In this document: positions 43,188 to 46,065 of the stretch, piece by piece
How the letters are laid out: each line of letters begins with the position of its first letter
How positions within the stretch are numbered: the stretch's first letter is position 1
From: Methanolobus sp.
GTDB taxonomy: Archaea > Halobacteriota > Methanosarcinia > Methanosarcinales > Methanosarcinaceae
Length of the DNA: 64,000 bases
Direction of reading: 5' to 3'
NCBI GenBank assembly: GCA_030154025.1
Contig: JASKKT010000003.1
Location: forward strand, 1-64,000
The notes under the pieces: model-generated
What the model was told of the DNA's origin: nothing
Database searches by the model: none
The model's input: only the letters and a program-made list of their open reading frames with translations
Translations under genes and position numbers: made by a program

Positions 43188-43901
43188 TCAGGCTTTTGTG
43201 ATGCAGTCGTAATCCACATTGACCCTTGCCATTGAGGGGACATCGCCCCAGAGACCGATGTACTTTCCCTGTATCACGATGGCGCCTTTGATCCCGGGAA
43301 TGTGCCGTACAGCTTCAAAGGAAGCTTCCACTGCATCCTTTCCGATGTCGGTGGCATTCCCCAGGGCAGTGGCCGCAGCATCTGCAAGGGACACATCGTC
43401 TGAAAAGACCACTGCCGCATCAGCCACCCCGAAGCTTATGGACGGGCCGACTGTGCCCGAGGATGTACAGATGCCAGTGATAGTATCCCTTTCCTCCATT
43501 GTGAAGCCAAGATCTTTCAACGGCGAATTGCCTGCATAGATACCCACCATAACCGGACGGTCATTGATAATGGCGATGTCACCCCCGTTATCAACAATGG
43601 CAAAACCGGCCCCTGACTCAACCATTGCTTCAACGGCAAAGGCGGAGATGGTGCCTGCCACAGCGCTCATGGGGCCGATACCCATGCTTGTGGCTGCTTC
43701 CGTCATCCGCCTTACGATCTCAGGAGCCTTGCCTTTTATGGAATATGGCTCAAGGCTTGTCCTGAAGAAAGGATCGAAGGAGATATACCTTTCAAGCTCC
43801 ATCCTCTGGCGGATTATCTCCTCTTTGGCCGCTTCTATATGGGAGCGTTCATCCGCCTGGATGCTGACTATTGTCTCTTTCAGCCGGTAGTGTTCTTTCA
43901 T
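43188..43901 (-). CDS. UPF0280 (COG2122) protein of sulfide assimilation
   Basis: A 237-residue protein of the UPF0280/COG2122 family, which is structurally related to ApbE. Characteristic segments are [36 protein letters not shown] and [21 protein letters not shown]. The M. acetivorans homologue has been linked genetically to efficient sulfide use in homocysteine and cysteine synthesis. Here it lies 40 bases after the NIL-ferredoxin gene in the same operon as COG1900. The start is set at the ATG at 43901; the track begins at a TTG six codons earlier. No Shine-Dalgarno is obvious. Confidence 0.87.
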
Positions 43902-43941
43902 ATGGGAAGTATAGTACAAAGCGTATGGTACCTGAACGATC

Positions 43942-44334
43942 TCATTTGCTGTTTATCAGGGTAAGGGCCCGCTGGGGACACATCTCGACACAAGTCCCGC
44001 ACTGGATGCATTTTGCCTTGTCTACCCTAAGGCTGTAGTCTTCCTCCAGGGAGAACACCTTGGTGGGACAGACAGATATGCATGCGCTGCATTCAACGCA
44101 TTCATCCTCGTTCCATTCGATGGGAGAATCAAGCCTGGTGACACGTGCACCCCTTGATGACAAAGCCTTGTACACCTTCTCATAATGTTCTTCCATCACA
44201 TCAGCCACGATCTCCCCTTGCGAGCGGTCAAAGTGTGCCTGGGAAACGTTCAGGAGGACGCCTGTCTCAAGAATCGATTCGGCTATTATGGGCTTTACTA
44301 CGGTTTCGCCGGAGATGGTGATCTTTATCTTCAT
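43942..44334 (-). CDS. NIL-domain di-cluster ferredoxin of homocysteine synthesis
   Basis: A 130-residue protein with an N-terminal NIL domain (about 1-75) and two [4Fe-4S] motifs, [12 protein letters not shown] and [12 protein letters not shown]. In M. acetivorans the homologue (MA1822) acts with the COG1900 protein to convert aspartate semialdehyde and sulfide to homocysteine. AGGAGG lies seven bases before the ATG at 44334, which decides the start. It begins one base after the stop of the COG1900 gene, so translation is coupled. Confidence 0.93.
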
Positions 44335-44335
44335 A

Positions 44336-45838
44336 TTAGTGCCTCCTGGCAAACAGCTTGCTTATATCGTCGCTTGTGATAATGCCCACCACATGGTTCC
44401 CGCCGTTGACGACCGGGAGTGCCGACACGCCATGCTGGTCCAGGCGCCTGGCAACAACGGCAACCTGTTCATCCACCCTGGCAGTAATGACCTTGCGCGT
44501 CATGATATCCTCCACAAGATCGAACTTGTTCTGGGACACTGCCTTTGATATGTCCCAGGCTGTCACTATGCCCACCAGAACATTGTCCTTGCTGACCACC
44601 GGCAGATGATTGAAGGCTGTTTCCATGATGATCTTTGCTGCCTTGTAGACGCTTGCATCCTCCTCTATTGTCACCACGCTGACGGACATGATGTCGGACA
44701 CGAAAGAAACACCTTCGGTCTCTTTCATGGCATGAGATGATGTGTTTCCAGGCAATCGTTCCACAGGCATGCTCACGAGGAAATCACCCCCGGATATCCA
44801 GTCCTTGAGCTCGGAGGCTATCGCCCGTGCCCTTTTGAAACTTGAGAGTGAGGACGTTGCGACCTCCCTGCCCTCAAGCTCAACATGGCCTGAACGCAGT
44901 TCCTCGTATGTTACCTTGCGCAGGACCGGCCGGTCACGGCTGGGTACGGAATAATCAAGGATACTGGTCGTAATATCGGCATCACTTACCGCGGTAGCCT
45001 GTGCTATCCTTTCATCAAGCACCGGGATGGGAATACCCATTCCTACATACAGGGACGTGCCATAACCAGTGAAATTTGCAGCCCTTATATAGTCAGGGCT
45101 CATCTTCTTGAGGTCACCCTGCAACATGAGAGTACCGAACATGCCTGCAGATGCATGCTGGGTTCCCTGTCCCACAATATAACCCTGAGCGCCTCCGAGG
45201 AAGATACGTGTTCCCGTACCGATGGTCAGGTATTCCGGGTCATTGGACAGTGGGGACAGGACACCTGCACCCGAATATGTCACATTGCCAAGTCTTGGCA
45301 GCAGGGAACCCATGTAAGTGTGAATGGTCTGTTTGGAACTGTTGGTCGCTGCATTATACTTCTGGTAGGCGTTACGGGGGTTGATCATAATTGCCTGGTT
45401 CATGTCCTCCAGGCTAAGGGAAGTATCAAGCACTTTACGGGGATAGCAGTCGGTCCCATGGGACACTGCATGAACATCCACGGACTTGCCGCGCAAGAGA
45501 TCCTCGATGACATGCGCTCCGCCATAATCCATGCCCAGCGATTCGGAGAGCTGGGTGGCGCCCATGTATGCATCCACTGCTGCAACACCTGTGTATGCCT
45601 CAACATCATTCATCCAGACCTTCTGCATCTTGATAGGAGGCTCAGAGTGGCCGAAATTGAACCAGACACCCGAGGAGCACATTGCGCCGAAGGTGCCTGT
45701 AGTGACAACATCGACCTCCCGGGAAGCGCCTTCGGGGCCGAGTTCCCCTACAATGTTCACCATTTCCTCGGCAGTGACAACGTTCACACTTCCGTCCCTG
45801 ATCTTAGCGTTGATTTCATGAATTGTTTTTTTGACCAT
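44336..45838 (-). CDS. L-aspartate semialdehyde sulfurtransferase (COG1900/DUF39 with CBS pair)
   Basis: A 500-residue protein of the DUF39/COG1900 family fused to two C-terminal CBS domains. The homologue MA1821 of M. acetivorans makes homocysteine from aspartate semialdehyde and sulfide. The N-terminal domain (about 1-370) contains TTGTFGAMCSSGVWFNFGHSEPP with a conserved cysteine and SHGTDCYPRKV with a second. CBS1 begins at VSDIMSVSVVTIEEDASV, CBS2 at VEDIMTRKVITARVDEQV. GAGGGT precedes the ATG. It is first of a three-gene operon with the NIL-ferredoxin and UPF0280. A TATA-like TTTATACTA at about 45880-45890 (minus strand) is the likely promoter. Confidence 0.93.
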   Translation of the reverse strand: MVKKTIHEINAKIRDGSVNVVTAEEMVNIVGELGPEGASREVDVVTTGTFGAMCSSGVWFNFGHSEPPIKMQKVWMNDVEAYTGVAAVDAYMGATQLSESLGMDYGGAHVIEDLLRGKSVDVHAVSHGTDCYPRKVLDTSLSLEDMNQAIMINPRNAYQKYNAATNSSKQTIHTYMGSLLPRLGNVTYSGAGVLSPLSNDPEYLTIGTGTRIFLGGAQGYIVGQGTQHASAGMFGTLMLQGDLKKMSPDYIRAANFTGYGTSLYVGMGIPIPVLDERIAQATAVSDADITTSILDYSVPSRDRPVLRKVTYEELRSGHVELEGREVATSSLSSFKRARAIASELKDWISGGDFLVSMPVERLPGNTSSHAMKETEGVSFVSDIMSVSVVTIEEDASVYKAAKIIMETAFNHLPVVSKDNVLVGIVTAWDISKAVSQNKFDLVEDIMTRKVITARVDEQVAVVARRLDQHGVSALPVVNGGNHVVGIITSDDISKLFARRH

Positions 45839-45877: not shown

Positions 45878-45890
45878 CCTAGTATAAATT
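45878..45890 (-). promoter_or_regulatory. candidate TATA box for the homocysteine operon
   Basis: On the minus strand AATTTATACTAGG lies 40-50 bases before the COG1900 start. It would give a transcript start near 45855-45860 and a short leader containing GAGGGT. It is the clearest TATA-like element in this 227-base spacer. Confidence 0.4.
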
Positions 45891-46065
45891 ACTTATGGTA
45901 ATTCGAGCTGGACAGTTCTCCTTGATCCTTCTTGATGCTCCACGACTACACTACGCAACTAAAAACTAAAGAACGCTTTCAACGTTCACAGGTTCCCACA
46001 AAAACGAATAGGATGCCTTAAAGAAGAAGCACCTCATAAAAGAGAAATAAAAGATGTATTCCGCA

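Follow-up and report, generated by a model that had tools for sequence, protein, structure and literature searches.

The three adjacent genes of Methanolobus sp. coding for a COG1900 protein, a NIL-domain ferredoxin and a UPF0280 (COG2122) protein make up a genuine cluster belonging to a known pathway, ordinary and well conserved, and the locus mainly confirms known biology. The linkage of COG2122 to COG1900 holds strongly. The three-gene arrangement is not the result of chance, since 75 of the 110 genomes of the phylum with both genes show the same order and strand. Very probably, the three genes constitute one transcription unit devoted to the synthesis of homocysteine from aspartate semialdehyde and sulfide.

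Layout of the locus and identity of its products

In the window, i.e. the whole analysed stretch of 64,000 nucleotides, COG1900, NIL-ferredoxin and UPF0280 follow each other in a single minus-strand run. The features of the locus are the following.

44336-45838, minus: COG1900a/HcyBio protein with a C-terminal CBS pair, 500 aa (PF01837 match)
44354-44701, minus: CBS pair of the COG1900 protein, residues 380-495 (best PDB match MJ0100)
43942-44334, minus: NIL-domain 2x[4Fe-4S] ferredoxin, 130 aa, orthologue of MA1822 (Fer4 matches, invariant cysteines)
43188-43901, minus: UPF0280/COG2122 protein, 237 aa, orthologue of MA1715 (NF003324, PDB 2o34)
43467-43469, minus: C145 codon of COG2122, in the motif G-I-C-T-S-S-G (70/70 sequences)
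44342-44347, minus: Shine-Dalgarno-like AGGAGG for the ferredoxin gene, within the 3' end of the COG1900 gene (read from the sequence)
45887-45903, minus: inverted repeat AATTAC-CATAA-GTAATT, 17 bases (kept upstream of COG1900 in relatives)

The open reading frames, their strand and both gaps were read directly from the sequence, and the original prediction of one run with a one-base and then a 40-base gap was exact. The TAA stop of the COG1900 gene ends at 44336 and the ferredoxin ATG starts at 44334; 43942 is the last base of the ferredoxin stop and 43901 the first of the UPF0280 ATG. UPF0280 could also start at an in-frame TTG at 43919, but Methanolobus relatives share the MKE... start at 43901. 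The AGGAGG inside the 3' end of the COG1900 gene suggests that the ferredoxin gene is translationally coupled to it, and the UPF0280 gene is devoid of an obvious Shine-Dalgarno sequence. Upstream of the run is an HSP20-like gene of the same orientation, and downstream of it an AIM24-like gene of opposite orientation (both named by eye from their translations), which makes the run a compact unit. No Rfam family was found between 38 and 50 kb of the window. Short gaps, a shared strand and a conserved gene order support the apparent operon, and the three genes are probably co-transcribed in the source organism. The ferredoxin-UPF0280 gap contains a T-rich stretch in most Methanolobus relatives (eight loci), possibly a partial terminator, which could end some transcripts before UPF0280; this T-rich stretch is absent from the gap of the window itself.

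The COG1900 protein matched PF01837 (HcyBio) with 477 bits (cut-off 26.2, E 3e-143) and reached only 160 bits against the methanogenesis marker 16 model, the cut-off of which is 364. Two CBS domains were detected by Pfam at residues 380-495 and no Fer4 match was obtained inside the protein, which is thus without an inserted ferredoxin domain. Its C54 and C131 are invariant in a set of 65 sequences. The 500-aa protein is therefore predicted to be the catalytic subunit of L-aspartate semialdehyde sulfurtransferase, orthologous to MA1821. The CBS pair of MJ0100 (3kpc/3kpb/3kpd) was the best PDB match of its own CBS pair (E 2e-29), and SAM and MTA are bound by MJ0100 (Lucas 2010, as cited in PMC12068725); a role of SAM/MTA sensor is predicted for the pair. 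A second HcyBio protein, encoded on another contig of the same genome (C10), is taken to be the coenzyme M synthase paralogue (methanogenesis marker 16/ComF).

The ferredoxin gene, one base after the COG1900 stop, codes for a protein with Fer4 matches in Pfam and two [4Fe-4S] motifs, the eight cluster cysteines of which are invariant in a set of 73 sequences. The NIL domain scored 23.8 bits, just under the cut-off of 24, and spans positions 3-71 of the 73 of the profile. The UPF0280 protein was identified by NCBIfam NF003324 (366 bits, cut-off 275) and by PDB 2o34 (E 9e-32).

Upstream of the run, the inverted repeat adjoins and partly overlaps a TATA-like TAATTTATA (45883-45891). Exact or degenerate forms of it precede COG1900 in most of the genera of the family that were read (13 loci), and the extended motif has its only exact copy of the genome at this place. 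The repeat is a candidate operator or core promoter of the operon, and its conservation and uniqueness are a small new point. A genome search with at most 2 mismatches for a regulon sharing the repeat gave 12 matches versus 21 in the reversed control, hence no excess, and no copy was seen upstream of MetY. The same genome codes for MetY and, next to it, for a MetX that ends in a CBS pair (contig C72; locus L104, 1477-4246); this pair shares 46% identity with the CBS pair of the COG1900 protein. The three-gene operon is thus not the sole homocysteine route: the genome has two, and in each of them a committed enzyme bears a CBS pair. That M. acetivorans has a second methionine route was already known (PMC12068725); the small new point here is the second homocysteine route with a related CBS sensor.

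Linkage of COG2122 to COG1900 across the phylum

The original prediction had proposed a survey of COG2122 neighbourhoods as its check, and a random placement of the gene as what would speak against it. The survey was carried out on a phylum sample of 147 genomes, at least 95% complete. Both COG1900 and COG2122 were present in 110 of them, neither in 34, COG2122 only in 3 and COG1900 only in none. In 75 of the 110 the two genes are same-strand neighbours, and order and strand never vary, COG1900 being first in every case; the two matches lie within 1.5 kb of each other in 66 of these genomes and within about 4 kb in the other 9. A ferredoxin relative stands between COG1900 and COG2122 in the linked loci that were read, with gaps of -4 to +49 bases, and in several families one junction or both show a 4-base overlap. 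In the other 35 genomes the two genes are not adjacent (6 with the genes far apart and 29 with the genes on different contigs, many of the latter being drafts in which most UPF0280 genes of a checked subset are far enough from contig ends to be called unlinked, whereas G146 may be linked or not). Families f3 and f9 showed no NIL-ferredoxin relative beside COG1900 within the fetched flanks (nine loci), and the COG1900/NIL-ferredoxin pair may be split too in some lineages.

The family of the window is represented by 31 sampled genomes from eight genera, and COG2122 is directly downstream of COG1900 in 25 of them. The six exceptions all come from two Methanosarcina-like genera (genus names inferred), in agreement with the original prediction, in which the UPF0280 gene of M. 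acetivorans (MA1715) is at a separate locus from MA1821-MA1822. The link is thereby hidden in the usual model: within the family, only the Methanosarcina-like genera have the genes at separate places. When the linked/unlinked label is mapped on a tree of 69 COG2122 proteins, nine changes are required (7-9 over bootstraps), and the unlinked Methanosarcina-like proteins form a group nested inside a linked family. The link has consequently been disrupted, or established, on several occasions. Near the unlinked UPF0280 of two Methanosarcina-like genomes (G073 and G081) stands an aldehyde ferredoxin oxidoreductase-like gene, accompanied in G073 by a ubiquitin-like gene of the MoaD/ThiS type (all named by eye).

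The original prediction took direct linkage as genomic support for UPF0280 acting in the homocysteine pathway. The survey bears this out, but the role had already been established by experiment. Comparative genomics had earlier suggested COG2122 for the pathway, and transposon fitness data showed that D. vulgaris Miyazaki F needs it to make homocysteine, the fitness profiles of COG2122 and of the DUF39 (COG1900) gene being correlated at r = 0.98 (Price et al. 2018, PMC5764234). In the same work, genetic data were given for each of the three families in D. vulgaris. MA1715 is reported to matter for sulfide assimilation at low sulfide (Rauch and Perona 2016, as cited in PMC5764234 and PMC12068725). 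Given the 2018 genetics and the 2016 study, the pathway role was right but not new. Gene neighbourhoods of COG1900a in MCR-bearing archaea are also the subject of a supplementary figure of a 2025 paper. Membership of the three families in the pathway thus comes from other species; the identities of the genes, their layout and the conservation of this layout and of the cysteines were established here. The repeated linkage gives strong genomic support for naming UPF0280/COG2122, still called hypothetical in databases, a homocysteine-pathway sulfur protein.

Possible role of UPF0280 and of its invariant cysteine

In the most probable scheme, sulfur would be taken onto Cys54 of the COG1900 protein as a persulfide, then transferred to aspartate semialdehyde, and the NIL-ferredoxin would give the electrons reducing the adduct to homocysteine. 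In other species, Cys54 has been shown to be essential, and its role and that of MA1715 have been treated (PMC12068725); MA1821 has also been shown to carry a persulfide in vivo on one conserved cysteine. The pathway could be throttled by SAM or MTA at the CBS pair and by methionine at the NIL domain. UPF0280 would make sulfide usable for the COG1900 enzyme, most likely as a sulfur carrier or donor acting through C145. This residue is the sole invariant cysteine of COG2122, present in 70 of 70 sequences including the bacterial crystal structure 2o34 (the letters of 2o34 being taken from alignments), and its invariance is a small new point. A conserved cysteine is also compatible with a structural or metal-binding role, and we propose only tentatively that C145 carries a persulfide to Cys54. 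The residue offers one precise target for mutagenesis in the study of the path of sulfide to Cys54.

The AlphaFold model of UPF0280 computed with seven close sequences was poor (mean pLDDT 51). An hhalign comparison with ApbE, weak at a probability of 65%, placed N105-G-G-D108, T146-S147, D174 and T178 on the NAGGD, TSG and D...T motifs, suggesting that COG2122 could be a sulfur-handling protein built on an ApbE-like scaffold. In its most complete form this proposal makes COG2122 a dedicated sulfur relay, passing the C145 persulfide to Cys54 with an ApbE-like pocket turned from flavin transfer to sulfur activation, in an operon controlled by a palindromic operator that is common to the family and occurs only once in the genome, both homocysteine routes sharing one CBS-type SAM sensor; taken as a whole, it is rather unlikely.

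UPF0280 might instead act in sulfide assimilation in general, supplying tRNA-dependent cysteine synthesis by SepCysS as well, its place in the operon reflecting the commonest client, and we regard this as a real if doubtful prospect. Supplying cysteine, homocysteine or more sulfide rescues mutants of M. acetivorans MA1715, and the loading of SepCysS with persulfide has been proposed as a task of MA1715 (PMC5764234); rescue by cysteine as well as homocysteine indicates that the role of MA1715 may be broader. Matches to the SepCysS model were obtained in all 56 genomes tested, linked or unlinked, 55 of them over the cut-off. Against such a general role, COG2122 is needed for homocysteine in D. 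vulgaris, which has no SepCysS (PMC5764234), the linkage seen in the survey is to COG1900, and none of the three unlinked Methanosarcina-like copies read had a recognisable SepCysS gene next to it. A tie between cluster break-up and SepCysS was also considered and dropped, since matches in every tested genome leave no contrast.

The alignment with the ApbE motifs, together with a weak ApbE similarity in 11 of 17 COG2122 members, would also be compatible with UPF0280 being an ApbE-like flavin transferase, or a flavin-dependent protein modifying one of the other two proteins. This is improbable: UPF0280 scored 9.7 bits against ApbE Pfam PF02424 (cut-off 25.6), the SHI.DP..G segment of ApbE has no conserved counterpart in the 17-member COG2122 alignment, the homology seems not to reach the flavin-binding region (Price et al., PMC5764234) and a genuine ApbE is encoded elsewhere in the genome. 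That the three genes are neighbours by descent only, with an unrelated function for UPF0280, is hardly credible: the linkage label does follow phylogeny, so that genomes are not independent, yet order and strand stay constant through the 7-9 changes, COG1900/COG2122 co-occurrence is almost perfect and fitness data already refuted this for Desulfovibrio (PMC5764234).

Comparison with known systems

The L-aspartate semialdehyde sulfurtransferase of M. acetivorans, MA1821-MA1822, consists of the same adjacent pair of COG1900-CBS protein and NIL-ferredoxin, and cysteine positions 54 and 131 are identical in MA1821 and in the protein of the window. COG2122 is found elsewhere (MA1715) in Methanosarcina-like genera, whereas in the window it is directly downstream of the MA1821-MA1822-like pair. 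Methanogenesis marker 16/ComF has the COG1900 domain family in common with the window protein; it is a coenzyme M synthase without CBS pair, and the window protein is far under its model cut-off. MA1715, PDB 2o34 and DvMF_0044 belong to the same family as the UPF0280 of the window and share its single invariant cysteine in a C-[TG]-S motif. The UPF0280 gene of the window differs in that it adjoins the genes of its client enzyme, and its product lacks the N-terminal extension read in the Methanosarcina-like copies. A run of consecutive loci, DET0921:DET0919, has been reported for the DUF39 pathway of Dehalococcoides (PMC5764234), in a bacterium, whereas the locus of the window is archaeal.
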